A stretch of 21,330 nt of DNA. Origin: a virus. Positions 6,122 to 21,330 of this stretch are shown piece by piece. Where the stretch lies: positions 1-21,330 of IMG/VR virus record IMGVR_UViG_3300033149_006626; one strand, given 5' to 3'. The notes beneath the pieces were generated by a model. The model had not been told where the DNA came from and searched no databases. It worked only from the letters and a program-made list of their open reading frames with translations. Numbering within the stretch: position 1 is the first letter of the stretch; the number at the start of each line of letters is the position of its first letter. The translations under genes were made by a program, and so were the position numbers.

Positions 6122-6124
6122 ATA

Positions 6125-6215: not shown

Positions 6216-6229
6216 GAAAGGCGAATACA

Positions 6230-6532: not shown

Positions 6533-6548
6533 AACAAGGAGCGATCTC

Positions 6549-6716: not shown

Positions 6717-6740
6717 GATAAATCAAATAAGGAACTAACA

Positions 6741-7541
6741 TTGTCTCACAAAAATCCCGATATCTACAAAGATGGACATATCGATATCGCTCATCCCGTT
6801 GCCAGGAAATGGGCACAATATAGGTTAAGCGGACAGGAATGGCAAGTCCTCTGGGTAATCATCGAAAAGACCTGGGGCTGGCATAAATCCTGGGATAAAA
6901 TATCCTTAAAACAATTTTACAAACTAACACAAATGAAGAAACCCAGCATCATCCGAGCACTACACAAATTAGAGAAGAAAAAAATCGTTAGCAAAAAAGC
7001 TAACAAAAACCCATACAGTTGGCATATCAACAGCCATACAGACAATTGGAAACCCGTTAGCAAAAAAGCTAACGTTAGCAAAAAAGCTAACGGCGTTAGC
7101 AATATTGCTAACGTTCGAGCTCGGAAACGCAAAACAGACAAGGCACAGCGAATCCCTAAAGAAACTATTACAAAAGAACTAAGTTCTAGTACTTATACAT
7201 ATAGTCTCTTCGAGTTCTGGAATTCGCTCCAAATCATCGTTCACAAGAACGTCAAGAAACACGAATCGGCTCTAAAATCTATTCTTACAGACTTCTCGCT
7301 CGAAGAAGTCAAGAAGTCCATGCAAAATTACGCCACGGTAGTGAAAGGCCAACAATACTTCTTTAATTACCGTTGGACCCTCTCGGAGTTTCTATCTCGA
7401 GGGTTCGACAAGTTCAGGGACGTCAACAAACCCCTGGAAAACTATCTAAAAACAGGAGATAAAAACCATGCAAGCAACCAACGAAATACTAAAAAAGGCT
7501 GGGAGGAATCGGATAAATACCGAGGGCTCTACGATGTATAG
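6741..7541 (+). CDS. Phage replication initiator, lambda O-like
   Basis: The protein has 266 residues from TTG 6741, with AAGGA upstream. Residues about 14-85 match the N-terminal winged-helix domain of phage replication protein O: a GHIDIAHPVA opening, then LSGQEWQVLWVIIEKTWGWHK, a DKISLKQF helix and a recognition segment. O proteins bind iterons at the phage origin and recruit the helicase-loader complex. Residues 83-124 consist of repeated VSKKAN/VSNIAN units encoded by the iterons at 6987-7112, so the origin lies inside the gene as in lambda. The C-terminal half is variable, as expected of a partner-binding domain. The next gene, a helicase loader, overlaps its 3' end and corresponds to lambda P in position. 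Confidence 0.88.
   Translation: MSHKNPDIYKDGHIDIAHPVARKWAQYRLSGQEWQVLWVIIEKTWGWHKSWDKISLKQFYKLTQMKKPSIIRALHKLEKKKIVSKKANKNPYSWHINSHTDNWKPVSKKANVSKKANGVSNIANVRARKRKTDKAQRIPKETITKELSSSTYTYSLFEFWNSLQIIVHKNVKKHESALKSILTDFSLEEVKKSMQNYATVVKGQQYFFNYRWTLSEFLSRGFDKFRDVNKPLENYLKTGDKNHASNQRNTKKGWEESDKYRGLYDV
6987..7112 (+). repeat. Replication origin iterons inside the initiator gene
   Basis: Four 18-bp palindromic copies of GTTAGC-N6-GCTAAC lie at 6987-7004, 7056-7073, 7074-7091 and 7095-7112. The first three have an A6 centre and the last has AATATT. Copies 2 and 3 abut and copy 4 follows after 3 bp; copy 1 lies 51 bp upstream. An A/T-rich stretch (about 7157-7204) follows, resembling the iteron-plus-AT-rich arrangement of lambda ori. 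This is the likely binding array for the protein encoded here. Confidence 0.85.
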
Positions 7542-8256
7542 TTGTTCCATCTGTGGAAAACCCTTATCCTGGGACGAGTTCCAGGACTCCTCATTGCCTT
7601 TTCCCTGTTGTCACCAATGTCGGCCCCAAGCTCTGAAAGAATACCATCGCTCCAGACTCGCTCGTCTCCGCTCTAACATCACATCTCACCTCGCCCGAGC
7701 CGGAGTCCCTCCAAAATATTTAAACTCCAGCCTAGACAATTTCGAAACCACCGGGGGACGGAAAAAGTACCGCGACGCAGTTCAATCCTGGGTCAACCAA
7801 TATCCTTCGCAAGGTCTCTTTCTCACTGGCCCAAACGGCTCCGGCAAAACCCATCTTGCCATCGCTGCCACGAGGGAGATCATTCTTTCAGGTGAAACCA
7901 ATTGTAAGTTCGTCAAGGTTCCACATCTGCTCTTCCAGATCAGGAAAGCGCTCCGTTCAGATATTCCAGATGCCGAAGAAACTATTATAAAGCAGTACCT
8001 GAACGCCAAACTTCTTCTTCTTGACGAACTTGGAGTTGAGAAAACTACTGCCTGGACCTTACAAACTCTGTATCTTATTATCGACGGCCGCGACTCTCAC
8101 ATGATGCCCACGATCATCACCTCCAACCTTTCTCTCCAGGGCATCGAGGACGCGCTTGATCCCCGCTTCGCTTCTCGCATCGTAGGAATGTGCTCCCTTC
8201 TCACGCTCAATTGCCCTGACTGGAGACTTCAGACACACACTCCAAGAAAATTGTAG
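7468..8256 (+). CDS. DnaC/IstB-type AAA+ helicase loader with N-terminal zinc motif
   Basis: The protein has 262 residues from ATG 7468 (AGGAG at 7454-7458). ATG 7534, just upstream of the previous stop, is an alternative that would remove 22 residues. An N-terminal CSIC (26-29) plus CC..C (47-51) suggests a zinc-binding module. The AAA+ core has Walker A GPNGSGKT (121-128), Walker B LLLLDE (182-187), sensor 1 TSN (218-220) and an arginine-finger segment DPRFASR (231-237). DnaC-family loaders place the replicative helicase on origin DNA melted by the initiator, using ATP. Its order after an O-like gene with embedded iterons matches the lambda O/P logic, with a DnaC-type loader in place of P. 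Confidence 0.92.
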   Translation: MQATNEILKKAGRNRINTEGSTMYSCSICGKPLSWDEFQDSSLPFPCCHQCRPQALKEYHRSRLARLRSNITSHLARAGVPPKYLNSSLDNFETTGGRKKYRDAVQSWVNQYPSQGLFLTGPNGSGKTHLAIAATREIILSGETNCKFVKVPHLLFQIRKALRSDIPDAEETIIKQYLNAKLLLLDELGVEKTTAWTLQTLYLIIDGRDSHMMPTIITSNLSLQGIEDALDPRFASRIVGMCSLLTLNCPDWRLQTHTPRKL

Positions 8257-8293
8257 TTTTCTCCACAAATCGCTAACTTATATCTTTCAAAAG

Positions 8294-8311
8294 AAAAGTT
8301 TCTAACTTTTT
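8294..8311 (+). terminator. Weak A/T-rich hairpin after the replication genes
   Basis: AAAAGTT (8294-8300) and AACTTTT (8304-8310) form a 7-bp stem with a 3-nt loop whose 3' arm ends in T. It lies about 40 nt after the helicase-loader stop. The low GC content makes it a poor terminator. Confidence 0.3.
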
Positions 8312-8477
8312 CAACAATCAAAACACATACTAAAACAACTCCAACAAAGTAGCCGACCAACCTCTCTCTCATGAGTTCATCACTACTTCTCAACCCATCA
8401 CTACCTCATCTCCTCCACAACCACCCCATAGAGATAAGCAGCTCGCTTCAACCACTCCACCTCCCCCAAGGTTCTAT

Positions 8478-8529
8478 CTGAACAAGGGGGGCTACCTGAA
8501 CAAAAGGGGGGCTACCTGAACAAGGGGGG
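8478..8529 (+). repeat. Three tandem CTGAACAA-G6 units
   Basis: Units CTGAACAAGGGGGGCTAC (8478-8495) and a 20-nt version with two more A (8496-8515) are followed by a third CTGAACAAGGGGGG (8516-8529). Each carries a G6 tract, so the three tracts can compete for the single C5 tract at 8544-8548, or join with GGG at 8538-8540 in a long-loop G-quadruplex. Confidence 0.85.
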
Positions 8530-8556
8530 CCCTTCTTGGGTGGCCCCCTTCTTCTA
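8522..8556 (+). terminator. Possible terminator hairpin
   Basis: AAGGGGG (8522-8528) pairs with CCCCCTT (8544-8550). CCC-TTCTT-GGG (8530-8540) forms the inner stem. The U-rich but C-interrupted tail CTTCTTCT follows, so termination may be partial. Confidence 0.4.
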
Positions 8557-8600
8557 CTATGGGAGTCTACCCAGCGGTAGGCCCTCTTTTCAAAGGTCAG

Positions 8601-8657
8601 GGTTCTCTCACCTCCCTTTCCACTGAAGGGGGTTTTGGTCTGTATGTGTGGAAGGCA
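8601..8657 (+). repeat. Duplicated terminator module, copy A
   Basis: GGTTCTCTCACCTCC (8601-8615) and the 30-nt segment 8628-8657 recur at 8958-8972 and 8980-9009, the latter with one mismatch. The stem CTCCCTTTC/GAAGGGGG (about 8613-8632, with G-U pairs) followed by TTTT looks like a moderate intrinsic terminator. The downstream GTCTGTATGTGTGGAAGGCA is kept in both copies although termination would occur before it. Confidence 0.7.
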
Positions 8658-8789
8658 GTTCAGACGAACATATCCTTTGCACCCTCCCCACTATTGATGT
8701 ATCCACCTCCCCTCGATGGGAGCTCCAACCTCTCCTGGTACATACATGACTATACGATTGTACATACCTCCCTCCCCTATAGAATCAGA

Positions 8790-8873
8790 TCCGCTGCCTG
8801 CTCACATGGTACCAACCAAAGGATGGAAACAGGTCCGCTGCCTGCTCACATGGTACCAACCAAAGGATGGAAA
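8790..8873 (+). repeat. Two tandem 40-bp identical units with hairpin motif
   Basis: Positions 8790-8829 and 8834-8873 are identical over 40 bp (period 44). Each contains TGGT-ACCA-ACCA (8807-8818 in the first), a small tetraloop hairpin, followed on the 3' side by AAGGA and TGG. The same hairpin-plus-AAGRA motif recurs at 8877-8927, 9273-9328 and 9352-9403. Confidence 0.85.
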
Positions 8874-8876
8874 TAC

Positions 8877-8927
8877 CGAGCCGCGCGCTCCACCTGGTCC
8901 TAACCAAAGAATGGAAAAGGCGGCTCG
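8877..8927 (+). ncRNA. Stem-loop with the TGGT/ACCA-AAGRA motif
   Basis: CGAGCCGC (8877-8884) pairs perfectly with GCGGCTCG (8920-8927). Inside are TCCA/TGGA (8889-8892/8912-8915), a 2x5 internal loop (CC / AAGAA) and TGGT-CCTA-ACCA (8895-8906). It is a diverged third copy of the motif in the two upstream 40-bp repeats, now within a closed stem. Confidence 0.6.
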
Positions 8928-8957
8928 CCGGCGCTAATCCTCTTTTTTCTCCCTTCA

Positions 8958-9009
8958 GGTTCTCTCACCTCCCCCGAAAGGGGGTTTTTGTCTGTATGTG
9001 TGGAAGGCA
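8958..9009 (+). terminator. Duplicated terminator module, copy B
   Basis: CCCCC-GAAA-GGGGG (8971-8984) with a stable GNRA tetraloop is followed by TTTTT (8985-8989), a good intrinsic terminator on the + strand. The flanks match copy A at 8601-8657. Confidence 0.75.
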
Positions 9010-9017
9010 AAACAAAG

Positions 9018-9055
9018 GAGGGGCGGATAGCTGGACGCTATCCGCCCCTTCTTTT
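9018..9055 (+). terminator. Strong intrinsic terminator with TGGAC loop
   Basis: GGGGCGGATAGC (9020-9031) and its perfect 12-bp complement (9037-9048) enclose the loop TGGAC and are followed by TTCTTTT. The same stem and loop recur at 9806-9846. Confidence 0.85.
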
Positions 9056-9206
9056 AAGTTCATCTCACCCTCAACTCCGCTTCGTTCCTCCCAAACAGCA
9101 TCTCACCTTAAAGTTATCTCGTCCCTCTACATGCTGATTGGGAGGACTCGCTCGTTCTTGAGCCCTCGTCCTAGATGTCCCCTCTTCCTACCCCCCAATA
9201 TCGGAG

Positions 9207-9252
9207 CTCGCACTGGATATCACCTTCAGGAGAAGGTCATATCCAGAGCGAG
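9207..9252 (+). ncRNA. Long hairpin with TTC-AGGA-GAA tip
   Basis: CTCGC/GCGAG (9207-9211/9248-9252), CTGGATAT/ATATCCAG (9213-9220/9239-9246) and ACCTTC/GAAGGT (9222-9227/9232-9237) stack with single mismatches into a 19-bp arm. The loop is AGGA. The tip TTCAGGAGAA recurs in the hairpin at 10263-10285. Confidence 0.65.
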
Positions 9253-9272
9253 ATGATCACACCCACCAACCA

Positions 9273-9328
9273 GGCGATAATCAGATCGCACATATGGCAC
9301 ACCAAAGGAGAGCGAACTGATTATCGCC
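9273..9328 (+). ncRNA. Long hairpin with GG-loop-CC AAAGGA motif
   Basis: GGCGATAATCAG (9273-9284) pairs with 9317-9328 over 12 bp. An A-A mismatch follows, then TCGC/GCGA (9286-9289/9312-9315). The inner loop has TGG-CACA-CCA (9295-9304) followed by AAGGAGA. Confidence 0.65.
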
Positions 9329-9351
9329 CCACCCATCTCACTCCAGTCGGA

Positions 9352-9403
9352 CGGTAGAACTTTCGCATATCGGTCGCACCAAAGAAGAGCGAAAGTTCTA
9401 CCG
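9352..9403 (+). ncRNA. Long hairpin with GGT-loop-ACC AAAGAA motif
   Basis: CGGTAGAACTTTCGC (9352-9366) pairs perfectly with 9389-9403 (15 bp). The apical region has GGT-CGC-ACC (9372-9380) followed by AAAGAAGA. It is the same layout as the hairpin at 9273-9328, with different stem sequence. Confidence 0.7.
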
Positions 9404-9601
9404 CCCTCCTTCACCTTCACTACCTACCAAACCACTCGCCAACTAAAAAAGAACGTGGCTCGCTCTTCTCTCTCCACTTCTACATCCCCACAACCCAACT
9501 CCCCAGGTCTATCTTTCCTCCCCCCGCTATCCACCACAACCCAACCCCACCACCATCTCTCACCTCCGACACGGTCCGGCGGGCCTCAAAAGTCAAGAAA
9601 G

Positions 9602-9635
9602 CCTCAGGGCATTCCCCTCCGTCGCTGAGGATGCT
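9602..9635 (+). ncRNA. Possible H-type pseudoknot
   Basis: CCTCAG (9602-9607) pairs with CTGAGG (9625-9630). GGCAT (9608-9612) in the loop pairs with ATGCT (9631-9635) directly after the stem, with one G-U. The geometry fits a compact pseudoknot; no folding program was run. Confidence 0.4.
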
Positions 9636-9805
9636 CTTTGAAATATTCTGCTCGGTCTCCTCACTACGGGGAAAATTTAAACTCGTCGCTATCGCTCCTC
9701 AAACAGAAATTTTTCTTTTTCCTCCGTTCGGAGGCCTCGTTAAGGTAGACCATCCAATGCGCCTTCGGGCAAAAGCCCTTCGGCCGCGAAGCAAGTTCAT
9801 CGGAA

Positions 9806-9846
9806 GGGCGGATAGCTGGACGCTATCCGCCCCTTCTTTTTTTTTT
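9806..9846 (+). terminator. Strong intrinsic terminator with TGGAC loop, second copy
   Basis: GGGCGGATAGC (9806-9816), loop TGGAC and an 11-bp complement (9822-9832) are followed by CTTC and ten T (9837-9846). It is nearly identical to the terminator at 9018-9055. The hairpin CCTCC-GTTC-GGAGG (9721-9734) lies upstream. Confidence 0.85.
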
Positions 9847-9970
9847 AGTTCACCCCCATAAGACCATCTCACCGAAAGGTGTCCCATCTTTTATCCAAGC
9901 CCCACCAAGTCGGGTTCTTTTCTCCCTCCCTTGCAACGGCCTTGCTGAACGCAAGGCCTAAAAAGGAATA

Positions 9971-10017
9971 GCCGAGCTGGAGACCCTCGCCTGGACGGCT
10001 TCGGTCTCCAGCTCGGC
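9971..10017 (+). ncRNA. 15-bp hairpin with apical TGGAC loop
   Basis: GCCGAGCTGGAGACC (9971-9985) pairs perfectly with 10003-10017. At the tip, GCC-TGGAC-GGC (9989-9999) presents the same five-base loop as the two terminators at 9018 and 9806, but here only TTAATTT follows. Confidence 0.65.
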
Positions 10018-10069
10018 CTTAATTTCCATCCCCAAGAGACAAACAAAGACCCTCTTTCACCACCGCCCT

Positions 10070-10092
10070 ATAACATAAATATTTTATGTTAT
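10070..10092. promoter_or_regulatory. A/T-rich 10-bp palindrome
   Basis: ATAACATAAA (10070-10079) and TTTATGTTAT (10083-10092) are perfect inverted repeats around TAT. It could be a protein-binding site or a weak hairpin; no adjacent promoter is visible. Confidence 0.5.
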
Positions 10093-10096
10093 CCTT

Positions 10097-10196
10097 CGAG
10101 GCCGTCGTGCCTCTCGGCTCTTTCCCTCTCTTCGTCGCAGAGCTCCTCGATAGTCGAGCCTTCAAGGCATCTTTTATAAAAGGATCGACGGCCTCG
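10097..10196 (+). ncRNA. Nested long-range stem structure
   Basis: CGAGGCCGTCG (10097-10107) pairs perfectly with CGACGGCCTCG (10186-10196), 78 nt apart. Nested inside are TGCCT/AGGCA (10108-10112/10165-10169) and GGCTC/GAGCC (10116-10120/10156-10160). CTCGA-TAG-TCGAG (10146-10158) competes with the innermost stem. Confidence 0.55.
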
Positions 10197-10241
10197 TGAG
10201 GACGGGCTATTTACTCTCATAATCCCGCTCCGCCCCCTTCA

Positions 10242-10258
10242 CATAATACCGTATTATG
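10242..10258. promoter_or_regulatory. 8-bp palindrome, operator-like
   Basis: CATAATAC (10242-10249) and GTATTATG (10251-10258) flank a single C. The symmetry and length suit a dimeric repressor site, but no promoter element overlaps it. Confidence 0.4.
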
Positions 10259-10262
10259 CGAA

Positions 10263-10285
10263 CCTAATTTCAGGAGAAATTTAGG
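10263..10285 (+). ncRNA. Hairpin with TTC-AGGA-GAA tip, second copy
   Basis: CCTAATTTC (10263-10271) pairs with GAAATTTAGG (10276-10285) with one bulge and an AGGA loop. The ten-base tip equals that of the hairpin at 9207-9252. Confidence 0.5.
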
Positions 10286-10315
10286 CAAAGGGGGGCTCTT
10301 CGTAACCCATAGCTT

Positions 10316-10350
10316 GGGGCGGCCTTGCCTTCGGCGATATCGGCCGCCCC
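10316..10350 (+). ncRNA. GC-rich hairpin
   Basis: GGGGCGGCC (10316-10324) pairs with GGCCGCCCC (10342-10350). TTGCC-TTC-GGCGA (10325-10337) forms the inner stem. No T tract follows, so it is not a terminator. Confidence 0.6.
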
Positions 10351-10365
10351 GAAAACACTCCAAAG

Positions 10366-10420
10366 CCCACCCACCGTGACCCCACCAAGTTGCCCCCACA
10401 CCCTCCAGACAAAACCATCC
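10366..10420. repeat. Imperfect direct repeat of about 55 bp, copy 1
   Basis: The segment beginning CCCACCCACCGTGACC (10366) matches 10790-10844 with scattered substitutions. The two copies lie on either side of the structured RNA at 10472-10675, suggesting duplication around that unit. Confidence 0.6.
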
Positions 10421-10471
10421 TTAAGGTCTTTTAAAAAGGTATCCCCCCTGCCATCCCCCACCAAACACATA

Positions 10472-10675
10472 CGGGCGAGAAGCAAGAATTAAAGGAAATC
10501 TTGCGTTTGGTTGCCCCCTACGCTCACTCGTGCGCTCGGCCTCTCGTTCTCCTCTAATTTTAACCCAGATGACACGAGAGGCCTCCCGCCATCTCGCTCG
10601 CCCAAACCTGGGTGTCAAGCAAGATTTCCCTTAATTCTTCTCTAATAAAGATCCCGTAGGAATGCTTCTCGCCCG
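10472..10675 (+). ncRNA. Large structured RNA of about 204 nt with likely pseudoknot
   Basis: The basal stem CGGGCGAGAAGC (10472-10483) pairs perfectly with 10664-10675. A second stem, 10484-10504 with 10619-10639, has 20 pairs and one A-C mismatch. Between their 3' strands is a 24-nt bulge. Inside are GTTTGG/CCAAAC (10505-10510/10602-10607) and the 10-bp stem GGCCTCTCGT/ACGAGAGGCC (10538-10547/10574-10583). Its loop carries CCCAG (10564-10568), complementary to CTGGG (10608-10612) beyond the inner helix. The extent and nesting far exceed chance. Confidence 0.75.
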
Positions 10676-10685
10676 AATCCCGTCC

Positions 10686-10702
10686 GCCCCCCCAAGGGGG
10701 GC
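10686..10702 (+). ncRNA. G/C-run hairpin
   Basis: GCCCCCC (10686-10692) pairs with GGGGGGC (10696-10702) around CAA. No T tract follows. Confidence 0.45.
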
Positions 10703-10739
10703 TCCCAGTATCCACCCTCAAACCTTCTTCCCGTAATCT

Positions 10740-11132
10740 CACCCCTGTTTTTTCTCTGCACCAAACCCAACTACCCAACCTCCCTTCCCCCCACCCACCG
10801 TGACCCTCCAAGTGACCCCTACACCCCCAAAACAGAACCACTCCAAAACCCCAACCTCCCCACAAACCATCCCCAGTTCCCGCTGCCCACCCACCGCAAG
10901 CACAATAGCAAAAACCATCACCCCACAACCAATCCACCTATCCTCACACCTTCTCCCCCGCCGTCCTCTATCTCCACATTCTCACATTTCCCCCAACTTC
11001 TTTCGCTAACCCACCAAAATCCCCCCCCACATCTCAGAAACTCTCCGTCAGACCAAAAACACGCGCCGGCTCCCAAACCCTCTCCCTCCCGCCTCTCCAG
11101 TCCCCTCCTGAACTCCGCTCCCATTCCCCCTC
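10740..11132 (+). promoter_or_regulatory. C-rich, G-poor tract, candidate Rho-loading region
   Basis: Nearly 400 nt have long runs of C/A/T and very few G, with no stems as strong as those upstream. C-rich, G-poor unstructured RNA is the known signature of Rho utilisation sites. Placed just before the late promoter, it could stop early transcripts from entering the terminase gene. This is inference from composition only. Confidence 0.4.
10790..10844. repeat. Imperfect direct repeat of about 55 bp, copy 2
   Basis: This segment matches 10366-10420. Both copies are extremely poor in G, and both run CCACCGTGACC, then CCAAGT, then CCCC-ACACCC. Confidence 0.6.
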
Positions 11133-11161
11133 TTGACAACCATCAAATTTTTGTGTATAAT
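11133..11161 (+). promoter_or_regulatory. Consensus sigma-70 promoter of the late genes
   Basis: TTGACA (11133-11138), a 17-bp spacer and TATAAT (11156-11161) match the bacterial housekeeping consensus at all twelve positions. The expected start is near 11168. The spacer end AAATTTTTGTG is almost the same as at the 18499 promoter. It drives terminase, portal and probably the large ligase gene. Confidence 0.92.
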
Positions 11162-11181
11162 GTCAGGAAAATGACCTGACA
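11161..11181. promoter_or_regulatory. Operator-like inverted repeat at the late transcription start
   Basis: TGTCAGG (11161-11167) and CCTGACA (11175-11181) flank 7 bp. The repeat begins at the last base of the -10 box, covers the predicted start and ends at the AAAGGAG ribosome binding site. A bound dimer would block initiation. The downstream protein begins with a helix-turn-helix, so autoregulation is possible. Confidence 0.6.
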
Positions 11182-11194
11182 AAGGAGCACTTCA

Positions 11195-12994
11195 TTGTCT
11201 CGCAGCGTCATTAAAAATACAGCTTCGTCTGTCTCCCAATCCCTCAAGCGAGCCGAAAAGATCAAGCAAGCAGGAACTCTCCGCAAAAAAGGCTACTCCA
11301 TCCGTGAAATTGCCTCAGAACTTAACGTGTCATACTCCACAATTTTTTCTTATCTTCGCACCCTCGAACTTCAAGATCTCACAAAAACTCAAGGCTCTGA
11401 CTTATCTTCGCCCACCCCTTCCAAATCCAAATCGAAATCTTCCCAGGACCTTCAAAGCCTCGACATTGTCTCCTTCTCAGAGGACCCTCGCTTCCTCAAC
11501 TTCTCTCTCAACCCAATGCAAAAACTCATTCTCAAAGCCTTCTATTCTCTTCCCCTCTCCAAATCCGAAGCAGCCACGCTTCGTAACCTTCGCCATTCAC
11601 GCAAAACCACCTGGAAGCCCGACCACAAACCCTACCGCGAACTTGTCATCGTTGCAGGCATGAAGGGAGGCAAAACAATCCTTGCTTCAGTGATCGCTTG
11701 CTTCGAAGAATTCTCACTCTATCGCCTCAAAGAACCCTGGAAAGCCTACGGCTTTCCACGCGATTATGAAATCTTCATTATTAACGTCGCCACCTCAGGC
11801 GATCAAGCCGAGGACACAATATATGCCCAAACTCTCGCAAGAATCAGAAACTCCCCCTTCTTTATGGCCCGGCCCTTTTCAGAAAAAGAAAAAACAGTCT
11901 CCTTCAAAGACTCCAAAGTCAAGATCCGCTGCGGCCACTCCAACTCAGCCTCCATCGTCGGCAAAACTGCCAAACTCGTTCTCTTCGACGAACTCGCAAG
12001 ATTCAAAGACAGAGGAGGCAAATCCTCCGCCGAAGCTGTCTACACCTCCCTCACCCGATCCGTAGAACCCTTCGGCCAGGACGGCAGAATCATCTCCATC
12101 TCCTCACCCCTATGGGAGCGAGACAAAATCATGGAGCTCTACGGCCTCTCCCACGAAATCCCCAACATGCTCGGATTCAAACTCGCCACCTGGGAGATGA
12201 ATCCAAAAATCACTCAGGTTTCCCTGAAATGGGAGTTCAAAAAAAATCCTGAGGCCGCCAGAAGGGACTTCGGAGCTGATCCCTCCAAACCCAAAGAAGC
12301 ATACTACCGCATGCCTTCAAAGATCGACGAAACATTCAACCGAGTAAAAGGCTCCATCGGTCCTATCGACGCGGCAGGCCATCTTTCCCCAAACTTCAAA
12401 CCCAACCCCGAATTTGACTATTATCTCCACGGAGATCCCGCTGCCAAGAACGACGCATTCGGCCTCGCCCTCGCTCACCGTCTCGGCACTAAAGTTTACC
12501 TTGACCTCGCCTACGGCTTCAACGCAGGACAAAATGAAATCGACGTCGAAGAAATCCAAAACATACTCCTCGAGTTGATCCTTCGAGGATTCCACATCGC
12601 CAAAGCAACCTTTGACACCTGGGCAGCCGTCTCCGTTTGGCATGCTCTCCAATCCGCCGGTGTAGAACCCGAAAATCTATACGTCCTCAAGGAACAGCAT
12701 GACGTTCTCAAAAATGTCATCTACCAGGGCAATCTCGTTCCCTACCCGAATGCCAAACTCCAAAAAGAGCTCAAAGAACTTCTCCTTCTCCGAGGCATGA
12801 AAGTGGACCACCCTCCCGACGGCTCGAAAGACATTGCCGATGCCGTTGCTGCCGTCACCTGGCATGCCATGAACGAGGAAACTATCGAAGTCGCCACAGG
12901 CGGCAAAGATCCCGAACACAACTATGCCTCTCCCAACACCCCCAGAGGCAAAATATATTCAAATCTCTTTCCCAGGAGGTCACCATGGCCCTAA
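11195..12994 (+). CDS. Terminase large subunit with N-terminal helix-turn-helix
   Basis: The protein has 599 residues from TTG 11195, with AAAGGAG at 11181-11187. Residues 24-58 form a resolvase/MerR-like helix-turn-helix (KKGYSIREIASELNVSYSTI), followed by a Ser/Lys/Pro linker to about 85. The ATPase has Walker A GMKGGKT (155-161), Walker B KLVLFDE (260-266) and a coupling SISSP (301-305). The nuclease part shows D414 in HGDPAAKND, D474 in FDTW and D546 in KDIADA. Terminase pumps DNA into the prohead and cuts it. No separate small terminase gene lies nearby, so the fused helix-turn-helix may take over recognition of the packaging site. Its 3' end overlaps the portal gene by 10 nt. Confidence 0.95.
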   Translation: MSRSVIKNTASSVSQSLKRAEKIKQAGTLRKKGYSIREIASELNVSYSTIFSYLRTLELQDLTKTQGSDLSSPTPSKSKSKSSQDLQSLDIVSFSEDPRFLNFSLNPMQKLILKAFYSLPLSKSEAATLRNLRHSRKTTWKPDHKPYRELVIVAGMKGGKTILASVIACFEEFSLYRLKEPWKAYGFPRDYEIFIINVATSGDQAEDTIYAQTLARIRNSPFFMARPFSEKEKTVSFKDSKVKIRCGHSNSASIVGKTAKLVLFDELARFKDRGGKSSAEAVYTSLTRSVEPFGQDGRIISISSPLWERDKIMELYGLSHEIPNMLGFKLATWEMNPKITQVSLKWEFKKNPEAARRDFGADPSKPKEAYYRMPSKIDETFNRVKGSIGPIDAAGHLSPNFKPNPEFDYYLHGDPAAKNDAFGLALAHRLGTKVYLDLAYGFNAGQNEIDVEEIQNILLELILRGFHIAKATFDTWAAVSVWHALQSAGVEPENLYVLKEQHDVLKNVIYQGNLVPYPNAKLQKELKELLLLRGMKVDHPPDGSKDIADAVAAVTWHAMNEETIEVATGGKDPEHNYASPNTPRGKIYSNLFPRRSPWP

Positions 12995-14448
12995 GACAGA
13001 CAATCGCCAGAGCATTGCTAGGCAAAAAATTCCTCGAAAGCCTCCAGAAAACCTCCGAATCCATCTCCACAGGCCGAAAAGAAGACGAAGGCTGGAGAAC
13101 CATCACCAAACACAAAACCCGTGACCTGACTCCTCTCACTCAAGAAAGAATGCAGGAAATCGCCTTCTATCTCTACGACACCAATCCCGTTGCTCACCGC
13201 ATTCTCGAAATGACCAAGGACTTCGTAGTCGGTGAAGGCATCACCTTCAAGGCAGCCAACCCCAACGTTCAAAGCATCCTCGAAACCTTTTGGAACGATC
13301 CCGTCAACGCCTGGGACCTCAAACAGGGCCAACGAGTCCTCGAACTCGGCCTCTACGGAGAACAATTTTATCCCGCGGCAATAAACAAATATGACGGCAA
13401 GGTCCAAATGGGTTACCTCGATCCCACATCCGTTTCACAAGTTATCTCTGACAACGACAACGCAGAAATCATTCGCCAGGTCATCCGTAAATCCACTGGT
13501 TCCCTCGACGCACAATCCTATCAAGTTATCCACCTCGATCAAAACCCCCAATCCCCCACTTTCAACCGCCTCGTCGGAGATATCTTCTTCTTCGCCATCA
13601 ACAAAGTCGCCAACGCCCGCCGAGGTAGAAGCGACCTCTTCTCAATCGCCGACTGGATCGACGGCTATGATCAATTCCTCTTCAACCGCCTGGAGAGATC
13701 GCACCTCATGAATGTTTTCCTTTGGGACGTCACCCTCCAGGGCTACGACCAGAAGAAAATAGATACCTGGCTCAAGTCCCAAGGGCTCCCCAAACCCGGC
13801 AGCCTCCGAGCTCACAACGAAAAAGTAACCTGGAACGCAGTTATTCCCAAACTTGAAGCCCATGACGCCTCTGAGGAAGCCAAACTTTTCCGCAATCAAA
13901 TTCTCGGCGGGGCAGGCCTGCCTCCCCACTGGTACGCAGGAGGTGAAGGCATCACCAGAGCCACCGCCCTTGAGATGTCCACCCCGGTGATGAAACGACT
14001 CAAAACCCGCCAGCGTTTTTTCAAACACATGCTCCAATTCATCTTCTCCTTTGTCATTGATCAAGCCATAATTCACCAGAAACTCCCCGAGGACGTCGAT
14101 AAAAAAGTCTCCATCTTCTTCCCCAAACTCCTCGAAAAAGATCTCTACCAGGCCTCACTTGGAATCAAATTCATTCTCCAGGCCCTTCAGATAGGCCTCT
14201 CCAAAGGCTGGATCTCCGATTCCGAAGCCCGACGAGCCTACGCATCCGTGATGTCTCAGGCAGGTCTTTCCTTAACGACAACGCAGCCTGAGCAGGAAAA
14301 CGAAAAACCCCTTACTTTCGAAAAAGCCAGAGAAGCCTTTCTTTCCGCCATGTCCCAGATGGGTCTCGACTTTCCGCAGGGAGCCCCATCCTGGAAAGAG
14401 ATAGCTCAAGCAATGAGGTCTTCTTATGCCAAACCTAAATCTCCCTGA
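12985..14448 (+). CDS. Portal protein
   Basis: The protein has 487 residues; AGGAGG at 12974-12979 lies inside the terminase end. Portal features are an N-terminal helical segment with RILEMTKDFVVGEGI, the FWNDPVNAWD and LYGEQFYPA segments of the wing, and LDPTSVSQVI. After them come the long stem and clip helices and the GGAGLPPHWYAGGEGITRATALEMS segment near 300-325. Portals form the dodecameric ring at one capsid vertex through which terminase packages DNA. The length fits the usual 400-600 residues. The C-terminal 60 residues are helical and Gln/Lys-rich. It overlaps the following gene by 23 nt, so the two are coupled. Confidence 0.93.
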   Translation: MALRQTIARALLGKKFLESLQKTSESISTGRKEDEGWRTITKHKTRDLTPLTQERMQEIAFYLYDTNPVAHRILEMTKDFVVGEGITFKAANPNVQSILETFWNDPVNAWDLKQGQRVLELGLYGEQFYPAAINKYDGKVQMGYLDPTSVSQVISDNDNAEIIRQVIRKSTGSLDAQSYQVIHLDQNPQSPTFNRLVGDIFFFAINKVANARRGRSDLFSIADWIDGYDQFLFNRLERSHLMNVFLWDVTLQGYDQKKIDTWLKSQGLPKPGSLRAHNEKVTWNAVIPKLEAHDASEEAKLFRNQILGGAGLPPHWYAGGEGITRATALEMSTPVMKRLKTRQRFFKHMLQFIFSFVIDQAIIHQKLPEDVDKKVSIFFPKLLEKDLYQASLGIKFILQALQIGLSKGWISDSEARRAYASVMSQAGLSLTTTQPEQENEKPLTFEKAREAFLSAMSQMGLDFPQGAPSWKEIAQAMRSSYAKPKSP

Positions 14449-17400
14449 AGACAAGCTATTCCGATATAGATGCCCCCACTGCCACTCTGAAATTCAAGCG
14501 ACTGAAGAACAAATGCTCGAACGGTTCATGACTTGCCCCCTCTGTGGCGAACCTATGAAAAAATCCAGTCCCAAAACGTCAGATGAACTCTCAGATGCGG
14601 TCCTACCCTATCACCCAAAAATCAAAAATAAGATGGATCTCAAAAGATGCCGCGATGATCTTAGAATTTTCGGCGGCTGGTACACCACGTTAAAAGAAAA
14701 GGGCAAATTCAAATATTCCGAAAACGAGATCCTTCACAAATTCCTAATTCCTTGTCTCAAAGAACTCATCAAAGAGGGTTCAACAGAATTCCACCCCGAA
14801 AACTGGAAGAAATGGCCAAAAGAAATCTACCTCAAAGCACTCGACAAGATCGTCAAGAAATTCCGCTACCTCGTCGAACCCCACGGCCAACTAATCTATG
14901 ACCGCAAGAAAACAGCTACGGTTCATGCCAAAAAATTCATTCAAGGATCTTTCCTCAGTATCGTCAGCGACAACAAAGAATACGGCTTCGCACGTTTCCA
15001 CCAGCCCAAACAAATTACTCCCAGCCAATTTGAAAAGCTCAAGGACCAACATCAAGTTTCCGACCAGGAAAGGCAACTATGGTGGGGGGGGGATAAAACT
15101 CACCTATACTTCTACAAACTCCGAACGTGGATCCCCTTCGATAAACCCCGCACCGTCAAGGTTCCCCACGGAATTCAAACCTACGGCAACCGCGCAAACC
15201 TAAAAGAGTCACGCTACAGACGAGATCGATGTATGAGATGTGACCGTCCTCCGGACTACGAACTTCTTTGGGCCGAAGGAATGGCCCGGGCCTGGTTCTG
15301 CAAAACCCATTTGAAGGAATGGGTAGATGATAAAAAGAAATTCGGCGAGATAAATGCAATTAAAAAAGTAGATAATGGAAAGGTTGGGAAGAAATGGAAG
15401 GATAATACGAATGGTAATATCAAATATTCCATCCGCAGAATCCTGGGACTTAAAGAATCCGATGCACCTCCGGGCCCCGAGATACCAGGAACTCAATGCA
15501 AGAGCCCCAACGAGGGCTTTCTCAGTAAGTGGCTCCTCGATAGAGCCAAAGAAATCCACAAACTTGGACAGATCATCTGGATTCCAAACTACATCTCCTG
15601 GACGGGCTCATCACTCTTCGCCGACAATCGCCTCCCCAACGACCTCGACACAGTATTCCGGGATAAAGAAATCAACCCCGCCCTACTTCTGAAAGTCAAC
15701 CGAATATTCCAAAAATACCTCGGCACTCAAGCTCACCCCATACCCGAGCCCTTCGGTCCAAACTGGCGACACCTACCTCTATGGGACCTCGCTTTAGTTC
15801 CCACAAAAGAGCTTCAAATCTTAGAAATCAATGAACCCGCGTTCATTCAAGAATTCTATGAGTCCTTCGGACCTCTGCTCGAAGCAGTTCCTCGAGCAGG
15901 TTCTAAGGAGGTCCAAAAACAGGCCGCCCATTCCATCAAACAAGACAAAATCAAAATGAATCGTTTCTTTCTCGGAATGAAACCCACCAGGCCAGCCTTC
16001 CCTGAGGAACGCATGACCCTTGACTCCCTCCTAAAATTCTTCAAGCCCGAGGACTTCCCTGTCCTGGTAGAGAAAAAATACGACGGTCAACGTCTCATAA
16101 TTTTCAAGAACGGGGATAAAGTGAGAATCTTCTCCGACGACGGTGAAGAACTCACTTCCCGTTTCCCCCAAACTATTGAAGCTATCAAGAAATTAAACGT
16201 CAACCAAGCTATCCTTGACTCCGAAACCGAAATGTGGGAGGGCAAAAAACATCTTCCCCGTGAAACTATTGCAGGATATTCGCACTCCAAGAGCAAGCCC
16301 GACGACTCGAACATCGTCTCAAACATCTTTGGGTTGCTCTACCTCGATGGCAAAGATCTTCATCATCAACCCGAGGCAAAACGCAGAGAACTCCTCGAAA
16401 AAACCAAGTTCCCTCAGTCCACCATAGATGAACCAGATCTAAAATATCGTCTCAATCTTGTCCCCTCCAAAATTGCTCACAATATCCAAGAACTTAAAGC
16501 TTTCACCGAGGATCTAAGATATAGACCCGCCTCCGAAGGTGTAGTAGTTAAGAAGCACAACGCAATTTACTACCTTGATCGGCTCTCAAGGAACGGCTGG
16601 TTCAAACTTCACAACACCGCAGTTATGAACGCCATAGTCATTGAAGTCATCGAAACGAAAACCCACGGAGTGCACAACTATCGATATGGAATCGACCAAC
16701 AAAACTTCCAAATCAAGCCCGGGGATCTTGCCGAGGTTAAAGGAAGAGAATGGCTTGAAGTAGGCAAAACTTTCAGTACTGAAAAAAAAGTCTCTCGAGG
16801 AGACATCATTGAAATCGAATTCGAAACTCTCAATCTAATCAGAGATGAAAGGACCGACACCGTAAAAGCCACCGCCTGGATTCCAAGATTCATGAGAGTT
16901 CGAACCGACAGAACCACTCCCGACAAACTTGACGATATTGTCAAACGGGCTCAAAAAAACAGGATCCTCATGAAAAAGACGATCTCCCCCGAAGGCAAAA
17001 CAATTTACGAAAGCTCGCCGGATATCAAGGAAATCGAATACCTCACCGAATCAGAATATCTTCAATACATTAAGCACTTCGGCCTCTCCAACAAAGACAT
17101 CCAGAAATACTTCCGATCCTCCTCCTTCCTCGAAAGCGTAGAAATCTCCTCCCTCACCGAAACAGAAATCAGAGAAATTGAGAAGGCAGATCCCGGCTTT
17201 ACCAACGCTTTAAGAAAGGCTCAAAAAAAAGCCAAAAGCTTACCAAAGTTTTGGGCAACTCTTGATAATCATTTAAGGGGCGCTTCTCAACACAAAGACT
17301 TCCGAGTAAAAATGAACAGTCATTTAAAAGGCAGAACCATTACCGATCAACCCGAGGGCGCGATAAAAGTCGCCGCCAAAACAGTCGAGGAAGGAAGAAA

Positions 17401-18502
17401 AGTTTGTAGAGAAACCAAGTTCAAATTCAGGCCCGACATGGATCCAGCAACTCACTGCGTCGTCGTTCCAAAGGCCCGCGAACCCCTAGTTTGGCTCTGT
17501 TTCAACGATACAGGGATGGGACAGTACGCCGCTGTTCCCCCCGGCTCAGTTGGAGCTACCAAAATGGAGTGGGGCGTATTTATTCAGGAAGACGAGGGCA
17601 TGGCCTATCCCACCGTGAAAAAACCCTACTTCGAGGAATACTTCCTGAACATGAAGCATTACAAAGGACGAATGGTCATCAGGCTCATTCCAGTAGGCAC
17701 AAAATGGGTAAAAAAGCCAAAAGCCAAACTACAATGGCAAACCTGGTTCAACTTAAAAGACCAAACTCCATATCTTCTTACACGGCGAGGCCGGCTCAAG
17801 AAAGATTACGTTCCCGACGGCATTCATACTACAAAGTCAGGTCTGCCGCCCGAGTGGGAAAAGAAAATCCCCATTGCTATGCGCTGGTGGGGGGGGAGTA
17901 AAAAATCCAGACAAGAAAAGCTTAACCGCATGGATCAGGCATATAATTACTTAATTCAAAAAGGCATCCTTAAGAGCAAACCTCTCAAGAAAGTCAAAGA
18001 AAGCAAAACAGCCAGGTTTATTATCCGCCGTCACTGGTGGAAGGGTCAACTCGTTGTTCGAGGCATGCCAGTCCAACATTGGGACCTGCTCATCGACTCC
18101 GGTAAAAATTACCTCGACGAGTGGAATTTGGAATCCGATCCCCTGATCAAAGAAAATCTCGAAACCGGCATTGCCGCCTTTCGTAAAACTTGTCGCAACA
18201 AAACTCCAAAGGGCCAGGGATTCAAAAAATGGATGGAATTCGAAGGCTCAATCCCTCCAAATCATCCCGAGTGGGGCAATCCAAACAAGGAAATCCCCGC
18301 ATTCATGCAAATCCTCGATCGAGGCACCGTCAACTGGATTGCGGATACAGACCTCTTCTCGCGCTTTCAATTCCACGGTAAAGCTCTCAAAGGTCTCGTA
18401 ATCATCAAGCGAGAGGATCCTCACTCAGATATTTGGATACTTTCAACATCTTCTTCGCCTGGAGAAAAGCTTTCAAGTAATTGTGCCAGGTCAATGACTT
18501 GA
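14426..18502 (+). CDS. Giant multidomain ATP-dependent ligase / 3'-phosphoesterase-like protein
   Basis: The protein has 1358 residues; ATG 14426 has GAGG at 14415-14418. In order, it has a zinc ribbon (C16/C19, C37/C40), a helical domain (about 65-150), a beta domain (150-250) and a CxxC...CxxH finger (269-295). A Pol-beta-like nucleotidyltransferase motif follows (GSS at 394-396 and DLD at 406-408). Then comes an ATP-dependent DNA ligase core: motif I KYDG (551-554), DSETE (598-602), LYLDG (638-642), EGVVVKK (704-710) and WFKLH (725-729), and an OB-like region to about 825. A helical linker leads to a conserved unknown domain (1000-1180, with VPPGSVGATK, DQTPY and MRWWGG). Last is a LigD-type 3'-phosphoesterase-like domain (H1203, QHWD 1217-1220, EGSIP 1273-1277). 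It would seal or repair DNA ends. Its site between portal and capsid suggests packaging or virion association, which is inference. Confidence 0.85.
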   Translation: MPNLNLPEDKLFRYRCPHCHSEIQATEEQMLERFMTCPLCGEPMKKSSPKTSDELSDAVLPYHPKIKNKMDLKRCRDDLRIFGGWYTTLKEKGKFKYSENEILHKFLIPCLKELIKEGSTEFHPENWKKWPKEIYLKALDKIVKKFRYLVEPHGQLIYDRKKTATVHAKKFIQGSFLSIVSDNKEYGFARFHQPKQITPSQFEKLKDQHQVSDQERQLWWGGDKTHLYFYKLRTWIPFDKPRTVKVPHGIQTYGNRANLKESRYRRDRCMRCDRPPDYELLWAEGMARAWFCKTHLKEWVDDKKKFGEINAIKKVDNGKVGKKWKDNTNGNIKYSIRRILGLKESDAPPGPEIPGTQCKSPNEGFLSKWLLDRAKEIHKLGQIIWIPNYISWTGSSLFADNRLPNDLDTVFRDKEINPALLLKVNRIFQKYLGTQAHPIPEPFGPNWRHLPLWDLALVPTKELQILEINEPAFIQEFYESFGPLLEAVPRAGSKEVQKQAAHSIKQDKIKMNRFFLGMKPTRPAFPEERMTLDSLLKFFKPEDFPVLVEKKYDGQRLIIFKNGDKVRIFSDDGEELTSRFPQTIEAIKKLNVNQAILDSETEMWEGKKHLPRETIAGYSHSKSKPDDSNIVSNIFGLLYLDGKDLHHQPEAKRRELLEKTKFPQSTIDEPDLKYRLNLVPSKIAHNIQELKAFTEDLRYRPASEGVVVKKHNAIYYLDRLSRNGWFKLHNTAVMNAIVIEVIETKTHGVHNYRYGIDQQNFQIKPGDLAEVKGREWLEVGKTFSTEKKVSRGDIIEIEFETLNLIRDERTDTVKATAWIPRFMRVRTDRTTPDKLDDIVKRAQKNRILMKKTISPEGKTIYESSPDIKEIEYLTESEYLQYIKHFGLSNKDIQKYFRSSSFLESVEISSLTETEIREIEKADPGFTNALRKAQKKAKSLPKFWATLDNHLRGASQHKDFRVKMNSHLKGRTITDQPEGAIKVAAKTVEEGRKVCRETKFKFRPDMDPATHCVVVPKAREPLVWLCFNDTGMGQYAAVPPGSVGATKMEWGVFIQEDEGMAYPTVKKPYFEEYFLNMKHYKGRMVIRLIPVGTKWVKKPKAKLQWQTWFNLKDQTPYLLTRRGRLKKDYVPDGIHTTKSGLPPEWEKKIPIAMRWWGGSKKSRQEKLNRMDQAYNYLIQKGILKSKPLKKVKESKTARFIIRRHWWKGQLVVRGMPVQHWDLLIDSGKNYLDEWNLESDPLIKENLETGIAAFRKTCRNKTPKGQGFKKWMEFEGSIPPNHPEWGNPNKEIPAFMQILDRGTVNWIADTDLFSRFQFHGKALKGLVIIKREDPHSDIWILSTSSSPGEKLSSNCARSMT

Positions 18503-18526
18503 CACTTTGAAAATTTTGTGTATAAT
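18499..18526 (+). promoter_or_regulatory. Consensus sigma-70 promoter before the capsid leader RNA
   Basis: TTGACA (18499-18504), a 16-bp spacer and TATAAT (18521-18526) are consensus. The -35 box overlaps the ligase gene's TGA stop. The spacer ends AAAATTTTGTG, like the terminase promoter. The start is expected near 18533, at the head of the structured RNA. Confidence 0.92.
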
Positions 18527-18532
18527 ATATAT

Positions 18533-18718
18533 AAAGCGATTAAAAATCGCAGACAATTCGGTTAAAAGAGGGTAGGGCCGAGGAAAGCGCGAACCCTACT
18601 GATCTAAGAAGGGTCTTTCCGGGCTCGAGGAAAGCGCGTAGCCTGGTGGAATGCTAAGGATATTCTTAGAACGCAAGGACCAAAAGTCTTAGTAGTTCTA
18701 TGAATATCCTTTTTTTTT
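18533..18718 (+). ncRNA. Phage structured RNA with twin identical hairpin loops
   Basis: Promoter, RNA and terminator make a self-contained unit of about 185 nt. In order, there is a 5' hairpin GCGATT-AAA-AATCGC (18536-18550). Hairpin 1 has stem GGTAGGG/CCCTACT (18571-18577/18594-18600). Hairpin 2 has stem CCGGGCT/AGCCTGG (18619-18625/18640-18646). Both hairpin loops carry the same 13 nt, CGAGGAAAGCGCG (18579-18591 and 18626-18638), although the stems differ. That is what selection on the loop would produce. The loops share self-complementary GCGC, so they could kiss within or between molecules. CTAAG/CTTAG (18654-18658/18665-18669) can compete with the terminator stem. No long frame is present. 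It could be a trans-acting RNA or a regulated capsid leader. Confidence 0.8.
18656..18718 (+). terminator. Strong intrinsic terminator ending the leader RNA
   Basis: AAGGATATTC (18656-18665) pairs with GAATATCCTT (18702-18711). TAGAAC/GTTCTA (18667-18672/18695-18700) and AGGAC/GTCTT extend the arm. Nine T follow at 18710-18718. The capsid start codon is 20 nt further on, so read-through, antitermination or transcript processing must control capsid expression. Confidence 0.88.
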
Positions 18719-18738
18719 GTGGAAAGTGAGCAAAGGAA

Positions 18739-21330
18739 ATGAAATTCGTCTCTGAATCAAAACTGCTTGAGGCAAAGGATCCCGAAGGCAAGGACTGGAA
18801 GGTTGTCGTCATTGAACCTGGAGTTGGAAAAAACAACAGACACTATCCCCCCGCGGTCCTCAAGAAAGCAACACCTCTGTATGAAAACATTCCGGTATAT
18901 CTCTTCGAACTCGGAGACAAAGCAGATCATCTACCTGATTCCCTCGCTTCTCAAAAACCACGACTCATCAAACATCTCGTTGGATGGCTCAAGCACCCAA
19001 AATTCTCCAAATTCACCGCAGATGGCCAAACTAAAGAAGGGATCACCGCTCACTTTCACATCGACGACGGAGCAAAATGGCTCCGCTCCAAACTTCTGGA
19101 TGCCTGGAAAAACGGCGTCCGACTTTTTGGTTTTTCCCACGATGCTGAAGGCAAAGTCACCAAAGACGCTTCTGGAATTGAAGACGTCGATCAGATCACA
19201 AGCGTCTCTTCCGTCGAACTCGTTACGTACCCAGCACAGGGAGGGCAATTCCTACGACTATTAGCATCAAATGGAGGTGCAACCATGAAAATACCCATTG
19301 GAGCAATGCTTTTGGGACTACTCGCCTCAATGGACACAGATCTCGTAGAAGGAATCGATCAGGACAACATAACCGAGGACCAGTTCCTTGAAATGGTAGA
19401 AGCTGCCTCTGAAAAAGAGGACTTCTACAAAGAAGCCGAGAAACTGGAAGCCAAAGGACCCTTTATGCAAGGAATCCTCGAACGCCTTCTCAACCTTCTG
19501 CGAGGGGACAAAAAAGATAAGGCCATCGAGCTTATCAATGCTCTTCGAGGTAAACTCAAAAAATACGGATATCCCGAGGTAGCTGGATACTACGGATATC
19601 CCACTCCGACGAAAGCCTCGGACGAACCCACCCTGGAGGATCTTTTCCCCGAAGGCGTTGAGGAACCATCTTACACTGCTTGTATGAAAGAGCAGATTCC
19701 AAAGCTCGGATTCAAAAAGGCCGCTGCTTTCTGCAAACTTCAGGCCAAGAAAAAGGAATCTAACCCCACAGCAGATCAAGACGTCAAGTCTACCAAAGAA
19801 GCACTTGAAAGAATAAAGAAGGTCGAGCAAAACTTCAAGAAAGCCGAATGCACCGCGACTCTCACTGAAAGCCTCGCAAAGTCAGATCTGCCTCAGCCCG
19901 TTAAGGACAAGATCAGAGCTCAGTTTTCCAATCGCATCTTCCAAAAGAAAGAACTCGAAGACGCTCTCAAAGCCGAGCGAGACACGCTAGCCAAACTGTC
20001 CGAATCCGGAAACTTAAAAGGTCTAGGGCAGTCAAAAGCAGAGGTAACTTTAGCGGAGGCTGATAAGCATCAAATTGCCATGGATCTCCTGCTTGGGAAT
20101 GAAATCAAGGATCCTAAGGGCGTCACGGCTTTCCGAGGATTGAGGGAAGCCTATAGAGCCTACAACCCCCAAGATCCCGACATCACCTTCCAACCAACCA
20201 AACGAGTCCATATGACCGAGGCTCTCGCTTCCACCGACTTCGCCTATGCACTCGGTGTTTCGATTACCAGGAAACTCGTCAAGCTCTACAAGGAGCTCGA
20301 ACTCCCCTGGAAGGAATTTGTCAATATCGTCCCCCTCGCCAATTTCAAACAGCAGGAAAGAATTAGATGGGGGGGACTTGGAGAACTTCCAACCGTATCC
20401 GAGAACGCAGACTACACAGACATAGCATTCCCCACCGACGAGGAAGCCACCTATTCGCCTCTCAAAAAGGGAGGTCTCTTTGCTATCACCAGGGAAACCA
20501 TCAAAAACGACGATCTCAATCTTCTTCGTCAAATTCCACGGAGGTTAGCTCGAGCAGCAGCCCGAACCCTCTCCAAATTCGTCTGGTCCTTCCTCATCGA
20601 CAATGGCGCCATCTACGATGGAGCGAACCTCTTCACCGCAGCACGAGGCAACCTCGGTTCCGCAGCTCTTGACTTTGATTCAGTTGCAGCGGCCATCACG
20701 GCCATGAAAAGCATGACAGAGCGCGGCAATAAGGTTGACAGCGGCACGGCAACAGCTAGCGGCGACAACACCCTGTCCGATTCTTCCCAAACCTGGACAA
20801 CCGATCAGTACAACGATTATTACGTCCGAATCGTTTATGGAACCGGAGTTGGCCAAATTCGAAAGATCTCGGCCACCGCAGAAACCCAGCTTACCGTTTC
20901 AGAAAACTGGACCACCAATCCCGATACCACCTCAAAATACGAGATCACCCAGTACATAGACGAAAAAGTAGGGATCAAACCCGCCTACCTCTCCGTTCCT
21001 ACTGAACTCGAGTCAACAGCAAGAATCATTCTCAACTCCGAGCGAAGGCCTGGAACCGTGGACAACGACATCAACGTCCTCAAAGACATCGTCAAGTTGA
21101 TGGTTCCACCCCAGCTCACGGATACCGACGACTGGTACCTTATAGCGGATAAAACCTGGATTGACTTGCTCGAGATAGGCTTCATCGATGGGAAGGAGGA
21201 TCCCACCATCCTCGTCCAAGACGCACCAGGAGTTGGAGCGGTTTTCACGAATGACAGAATCACCTACAAGGTTCGCCATGAATATGGCGGGGCTGTAATC
21301 GACTATCGAGGATTCTACAAAGCGGTAGTC
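18739..21330 (+). CDS. Fused prohead protease, scaffold and major capsid protein (3' end beyond window)
   Basis: The frame is open for 864 codons to the window edge; the last residues (VIDYRGFYKAVV) suggest the end is near. Residues 1-178 resemble Mu gpI/XkdF-type prohead proteases, with H64 and the segments LFGFSHDAEG (129-138) and SVSSVELVTYPAQGG (155-169), which probably hold the active site. Residues 183-440 are charged helix and coiled coil, a scaffold. From about 450 it resembles the Mu gpT-like HK97-fold capsid family: FVNIVPLANFKQQERIRWG, GGLFAITRETIKND and a late GFIDGKEDPTILVQD. Residues about 668-736 are a beta-rich insertion. The start has only AAAGGAA very close to ATG 18739. Capsid assembly followed by self-cleavage is the expected role. 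Confidence 0.88.
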   Translation, partial: MKFVSESKLLEAKDPEGKDWKVVVIEPGVGKNNRHYPPAVLKKATPLYENIPVYLFELGDKADHLPDSLASQKPRLIKHLVGWLKHPKFSKFTADGQTKEGITAHFHIDDGAKWLRSKLLDAWKNGVRLFGFSHDAEGKVTKDASGIEDVDQITSVSSVELVTYPAQGGQFLRLLASNGGATMKIPIGAMLLGLLASMDTDLVEGIDQDNITEDQFLEMVEAASEKEDFYKEAEKLEAKGPFMQGILERLLNLLRGDKKDKAIELINALRGKLKKYGYPEVAGYYGYPTPTKASDEPTLEDLFPEGVEEPSYTACMKEQIPKLGFKKAAAFCKLQAKKKESNPTADQDVKSTKEALERIKKVEQNFKKAECTATLTESLAKSDLPQPVKDKIRAQFSNRIFQKKELEDALKAERDTLAKLSESGNLKGLGQSKAEVTLAEADKHQIAMDLLLGNEIKDPKGVTAFRGLREAYRAYNPQDPDITFQPTKRVHMTEALASTDFAYALGVSITRKLVKLYKELELPWKEFVNIVPLANFKQQERIRWGGLGELPTVSENADYTDIAFPTDEEATYSPLKKGGLFAITRETIKNDDLNLLRQIPRRLARAAARTLSKFVWSFLIDNGAIYDGANLFTAARGNLGSAALDFDSVAAAITAMKSMTERGNKVDSGTATASGDNTLSDSSQTWTTDQYNDYYVRIVYGTGVGQIRKISATAETQLTVSENWTTNPDTTSKYEITQYIDEKVGIKPAYLSVPTELESTARIILNSERRPGTVDNDINVLKDIVKLMVPPQLTDTDDWYLIADKTWIDLLEIGFIDGKEDPTILVQDAPGVGAVFTNDRITYKVRHEYGGAVIDYRGFYKAVV
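19273..19287 (+). promoter_or_regulatory. Internal ribosome binding site and in-frame start for scaffold-capsid
   Basis: GGAGG (19273-19277) lies 7 nt before an in-frame ATG (19285) at residue 183, exactly at the protease-scaffold boundary. It is far better than the site at 18739. Initiation here would give a scaffold-capsid product without protease, in the manner of lambda C/Nu3 nested genes. Confidence 0.65.

Follow-up and report, generated by a model that had tools for sequence, protein, structure and literature searches.

In the dual-hairpin leaders of the ANTAR type, two hairpins carry like-looking loops and are bound as one unit, and an antiterminator excludes an intrinsic terminator just 5' of the gene (PMC3369931). 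In these leaders, the targets of EutV, NasR, and AmiR, short stems bear hexaloops with A1 and G4, and the second hairpin itself overlaps the terminator. In the leader of Bacillus rplJL (L10), too, alternative helices determine whether a terminator forms or transcription reads through (PMC4538822). This is an autogenous attenuator in which a kink-turn and UAA form the target of a cellular ribosomal protein. Among phages, put of HK022 is described in the available text of its source as a leader RNA of about 70 nt with two stem-loops near the promoter, which leads to antitermination via RNA polymerase; that text describes no overlapping antiterminator/terminator pair (PMC9378689). Phage phi29 has a small packaging RNA with loops able to make contacts. 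In lambda, the late leader (PR'-tR', 6S RNA, Q) places a strong constitutive promoter, a short leader RNA, and a terminator before the late structural genes. Q acts from a DNA site, and we know of no conserved twin-loop RNA antiterminator in this leader.

Each of these systems shares features with a leader element from IMG/VR virus record IMGVR_UViG_3300033149_006626. The stretch analysed, called the window, comprises positions 1-21,330 of that record. By working principle the ANTAR leaders appear nearest, with HK022 put and the lambda late leader as further analogues. The phage element likewise has two like-looped hairpins and, in three of its five members, a predicted antiterminator that excludes a terminator; however, its loops are of 9 nt on stems of about 9 bp, and the terminator is overlapped not by hairpin 2 itself but by a 14-bp helix that surrounds it. 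No hexaloop with A1 and G4 appears in its folds, and no ANTAR gene (PF03861) was found on the five contigs carrying the element, which are fragments. With rplJL it shares alternative RNA helices in the regulated gene's own leader, but twin GGAANGC loops stand in the place of the kink-turn target. With put it has in common two stem-loops near the promoter of a phage leader, and with lambda the strong promoter, short leader, and terminator 5' of structural genes. Like the phi29 RNA it is small and has loops that could make contacts, but it is a cis capsid leader in which the GCGC loop contact is not conserved. We would place it among elements of the transcription-attenuator kind, and not as a member of the ANTAR or put families.

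The capsid gene and its promoter

The gene that follows the element (18739-21330, plus strand) encodes a fusion of head maturation protease and major capsid protein (phrog_133, phrog_4523; PF25209, PF10124) and runs off the window. The original prediction had called it a capsid gene, which holds for the major capsid part and misses the protease. It is preceded by genes for terminase (11195) and portal (12985) and by a large ORF (14426-18502) containing a DNA ligase domain. At its N-terminus the terminase large subunit (11195-12994) has a resolvase-like helix-turn-helix (PF02796), an apparently unusual feature for a TerL. Before this gene, about 3 kb (8257-11190) lack a convincing gene and contain many inverted repeats, several direct repeats, and, within 9017-9060 and 9802-9848, a pair of nearly identical hairpins that resemble terminators (GGGCGGATAGCTGGACGCTATCCGCCC).

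Consensus scoring identifies a sigma-70-type promoter at 18499-18526 on the plus strand, with TTGACA at 18499-18504, a 16-nt spacer, and TATAAT at 18521-18526. Its score of 12/12 is the top promoter match within 14.0-21.3 kb of the window. Strong promoters occupy the equivalent site in the homologous loci L001, L028, and L029, and also in L002, where the spacer is 15 nt. We infer a transcript start near 18533, which would give an RNA of about 186 nt (about 18533-18718; rounded elsewhere to about 185). As a whole this RNA folds more stably than chance (z = -3.9; 0 of 200 shuffles).

A near-palindrome, CAGGTCA-A-TGACTTG (18489-18503), overlaps the -35 element of the capsid-leader promoter. A second perfect TTGACA-TATAAT promoter lies 5' of the terminase gene (11134-11180); it shares the TTTTGTGTATAAT stretch with the capsid promoter, and its predicted start coincides with the palindrome GTCAGG-AAAATGA-CCTGAC, possibly an operator. 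The two palindromes resemble each other, and perhaps represent a shared repressor site.

Homologous loci

The family has five members: the window and the IMG/VR phage contigs L001, L002, L028, and L029, all from uncultured phages with incomplete genomes. L001 and L002 were found by a search of viral contigs for the exact twin-loop pattern, and L028 and L029 by alignment of the capsid protein, a search in which the RNA was not used. In all five the element occurs as a single copy on its contig, preceded by a TTGACA promoter and followed by the start codon of a homologous protease-capsid fusion gene. The fusion proteins of the four homologues are 56-65% identical to that of the window, and the loops have thus been held fixed over considerable divergence. 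Upstream, L002, L028, and L029 have genes other than those found in the window and L001; the RNA therefore stays with the capsid gene when its surroundings change. In L001, the ligase-domain ORF (2281-7629, minus strand) exceeds that of the window by about 420 residues. These additional residues break up the ...RG/SQHKDF... region and end in AHNS, like an intein.

The gene directly 5' of the RNA promoter in L002 (5327-5500, minus strand), L029 (5571-5744), and L028 (5606-5803) encodes a conserved protein of 58-66 residues that carries the motifs MxCHNCL and IYIHxPHCP. The two sequences tested gave no Pfam or PHROG match. This small Cys/His protein was considered as the regulator and rejected, since no homologue exists on the contigs of the window and L001.

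Beyond these members the element was not detected. It is absent from capsid relatives at about 35% identity; L212 has promoter-like sequence and a leader without twin loops, and in L204 (capsid 67%) the contig ends short of the expected RNA position. GenBank phages gave no DNA match worth keeping. The nearest capsid relative among them, from Microcystis phage Mae-JY22 (34%), has no leader, because its capsid gene overlaps the preceding gene. Looser twin-loop searches of the viral contigs added only low-complexity, coding, and unrelated repeat sequences. In a genome collection, the twin-loop scan gave chance or repeat matches among the matches listed, and the capsid query gave none. Rfam 15 returned nothing at the gathering threshold in the window or the four homologous loci, in agreement with the original prediction that the RNA matches no known class; the best sub-threshold match was a microRNA on the terminator (E = 0.52). 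Searches of the available literature did not find the element described.

Twin hairpins and their loops

All on the plus strand, the structured part of the RNA begins with a 5' hairpin seen in sequence and fold (18536-18550, GCGATT-AAA-AATCGC). The other four members contain no sequence homologous to it, and by this comparison it lies outside the conserved core. A candidate basal helix, GGUUA (18560-18564) with UGAUC (18600-18604), may surround hairpin 1 (18560-18604 overall); it is paired wherever both strands are present, with one-sided changes only. Hairpin 1 (18572-18599) has the stem GUAGGG/CCCUAC and the loop CGAGGAAAGCGCG at 18579-18591, and hairpin 2 (18619-18646) the stem CCGGGCU/AGCCUGG with a 1-nt bulge and the same loop at 18626-18638; sequence and covariation identify both. 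The two exact copies of the 13-mer thus form the loops of hairpins whose stems are unrelated, and no further copy exists in the window even when 2 mismatches are allowed. In the folds the loop comprises either the 9 nt AGGAAAGCG, with CG/CG closing it, or GAAAG within a lone G-C pair. A kink-turn in the bulge of hairpin 1 was judged by eye and set aside, as the GA/AG pairs fail to line up in the homologues.

The window, L001, and L002 retain exact copies of both 13-mers. The two loops of L028 share a change from GCGCG to GCACG. In L029 an A is replaced by T at the same place in both loops, and loop 1 has one extra change (it reads GAGCG). Parallel changes of this sort in separate loops are to be expected if one and the same reader recognises both. 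Each of the five members has GGA in the bulge as well as in both hairpin loops, and conservation spans GAGGAANG..CG.

The stems behave differently from the loops. In the five-sequence alignment, five pairs of hairpin 1 and three of hairpin 2 show two-sided changes. The full structure has 32 pairs, with 91% of cells paired and 14 pairs changed on both sides; none of 500 shuffles reaches either value, and control structures slid by 1-3 columns have at most 4 pairs with two-sided changes. These counts come from five sequences of which L002 and L029 are close, so the independent events are few. A covariance model built from four members recovers the left-out L028 at 66 bits (E = 5e-15). A covariance-model search and a comparison of homologues had been proposed with the original prediction, and both came out in its favour. 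The promoter, 5' hairpin, twin 13-nt loops, T9 terminator, and 20-nt gap to the ATG that it listed are correct in sequence and coordinates, and the homologues, in which stems are compensated and loops fixed, strongly support its view that the loops are under selection as a putative binding site. The RNA as it was described is conserved in its twin hairpins, though not in the 5' hairpin.

Antiterminator, bulge, and terminator

The strand between the hairpins (18603-18618, plus strand; UCUAAGAA-GG-GUCUUU) is the 5' strand of an antiterminator helix supported by folds and covariation. It pairs with the 5' arm of the terminator to form a 14-bp helix that encloses hairpin 2, and RNAalifold finds its inner long-range part, the linker 5' of hairpin 2 with the strand 3' of it, unprompted. 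The helix consists of 8 + 6 bp separated by a 2-nt/1-nt internal loop, with the same geometry in the window, L002, and L029. Complementarity as good as that of the upstream strand arose in 6, 8, and 2 of 5000 shuffles in these three, respectively. In L001 and L028 the outer helix is weaker (180 and 135 of 5000).

The shared strand (18656-18670, plus strand) serves as antiterminator 3' strand and terminator 5' arm, with 14 pairs available upstream or 14 of 15 downstream in the window; with the terminator 3' arm it forms 14-15 of 15 pairs in the window, L002, and L029. The intrinsic terminator, seen in sequence and fold, extends over 18656-18718, its hairpin followed by T9 (18710-18718), and equivalents exist in L002 and L029. 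The T9 tract ends 20 nt before the capsid-fusion ATG at 18739. In these three members both partners of the shared strand have changed together with it, and antiterminator and terminator are mutually exclusive by prediction and covariation; this was not found in L001 and L028. Transcripts that end before the terminator 3' arm are predicted to take the antiterminator fold (in L029 only when 4 nt longer), and full-length transcripts the terminator fold. The terminator state is favoured over the antiterminator form by about 10-13 kcal/mol; termination is thus the predicted default as long as nothing holds the antiterminator, and read-through would need a factor or fast kinetics.

The antiterminator helix creates a 9-nt bulge (18647-18655, plus strand; UGGAAUGCU, also written UGGAANGCN) and stacks hairpin 2 on it; the bulge carries a third copy of the loop motif, (A/U)GGAANGC. 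Conservation and folds both identify it. Its consensus is UGGAA(A/U/C)GCN, with GUGGAA and GC invariant in all five members. Because the bulge is present only when the antiterminator helix forms, a factor reading the loops is suggested to stabilise the antiterminator form as well.

L001 and L028 have no recognisable U-tract terminator between the RNA and the gene. In L001 the start codon and a likely Shine-Dalgarno sequence lie in a hairpin that none of 1000 shuffles matched; a similar 7-bp hairpin holds the start codon of L028 (120 of 1000 shuffles, not significant). No start-codon hairpin of this kind occurs in the window, L002, or L029. The output in L001 and L028 may, with weaker support, be translational, or their terminators may lie elsewhere.

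Proposed mechanism and alternatives

The element is conserved before the capsid gene, its stems covary, and its loops stay fixed or change together. It is best read as a cis-acting attenuator/antiterminator leader governed by a putative factor reading GGAANGC, and it probably acts as a transcription attenuator in the 5' leader of the protease-capsid mRNA. In this model, host sigma-70 polymerase would start at the strong promoter and the two same-loop hairpins would form first. The strand between them would then pair with the strand 3' of hairpin 2, giving the antiterminator with hairpin 2 enclosed and the third motif copy displayed in the 9-nt bulge. A putative factor reading (A/U)GGAANGC would hold this form, so that the terminator could not close and polymerase would enter the capsid gene; without the factor the more stable terminator would form and a short RNA of about 185 nt would be released. 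In this scheme both read-through and the factor, from its existence to its identity and the sign of its action, are what we infer. Among the three options of the original prediction, the cis-acting antitermination leader is best supported, because the conserved antiterminator helix, which had not been described there, overlaps the terminator. A more specific and tentative possibility is that an oligomeric phage protein, perhaps the capsid/protease product itself, reads the three GGAANGC motifs and feeds assembly or late timing back on capsid transcription.

The five fragmentary contigs yielded no candidate regulator, and this would suit a put-like RNA whose hairpins bind the transcribing RNA polymerase directly, so that terminators are ignored and no partner protein is needed. 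An adjacent pair of bulged stem-loops after a strong promoter, followed by a terminator, is also how the available text presents HK022 putL (PMC9378689). Yet the same text describes neither twin identical loops nor a terminator-overlapping helix for put, the conserved alternative pairing would be superfluous for the put mechanism, and model R1 had no match in the HK022 genome up to E = 10 in a one-way test; such an RNA is unlikely. It is rather improbable that the element is an independent small RNA, say for packaging or regulation, whose place before the capsid gene is incidental. The predicted discrete product of about 185 nt, with its own promoter and, in 3 of 5 members, its own terminator, would be in keeping with it; the other two lack a recognisable terminator and so would have no discrete RNA end without processing. 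The element is moreover always in cis to the same gene though upstream genes differ, and its terminator and antiterminator pairing covary. The packaging version, with loops kissing through GCGC, loses its basis, since the palindrome is gone from both loops of L028 and from loop 1 of L029.

CsrA binds GGA motifs in mRNAs (PMC4894983), and every member offers GGA in two loops and the bulge, so that host or phage CsrA/RsmA could bind there as a decoy or in control of capsid expression. The AGGA/CsrA decoy of the original prediction keeps this point in its favour, but conservation is wider than GGA, the element is linked in cis to one gene, and csrA (PF02599) is absent from the five contigs, which are fragments, although a host protein could act; we regard this reading as very improbable. 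The start-codon hairpins of L001 and, at a level not distinguished from chance, of L028 would fit a leader acting on ribosome access or mRNA decay with the terminator secondary, a reading that is scarcely probable given that the window, L002, and L029 have an overlapping terminator instead. The attenuator model thus remains the preferred one.

Implications

A covariance model now exists for a family absent from Rfam 15, and the short loop motif makes the missing RNA-binding factor findable by pull-down. If an oligomeric phage protein, perhaps the capsid or protease product, proves to be the reader, this would be a new RNA-protein recognition code in tailed phages. Tailed phages mostly set capsid levels via late promoters, sigma factors, and Q-type antitermination, and control through a conserved RNA switch reserved for the capsid gene would differ from these routes.
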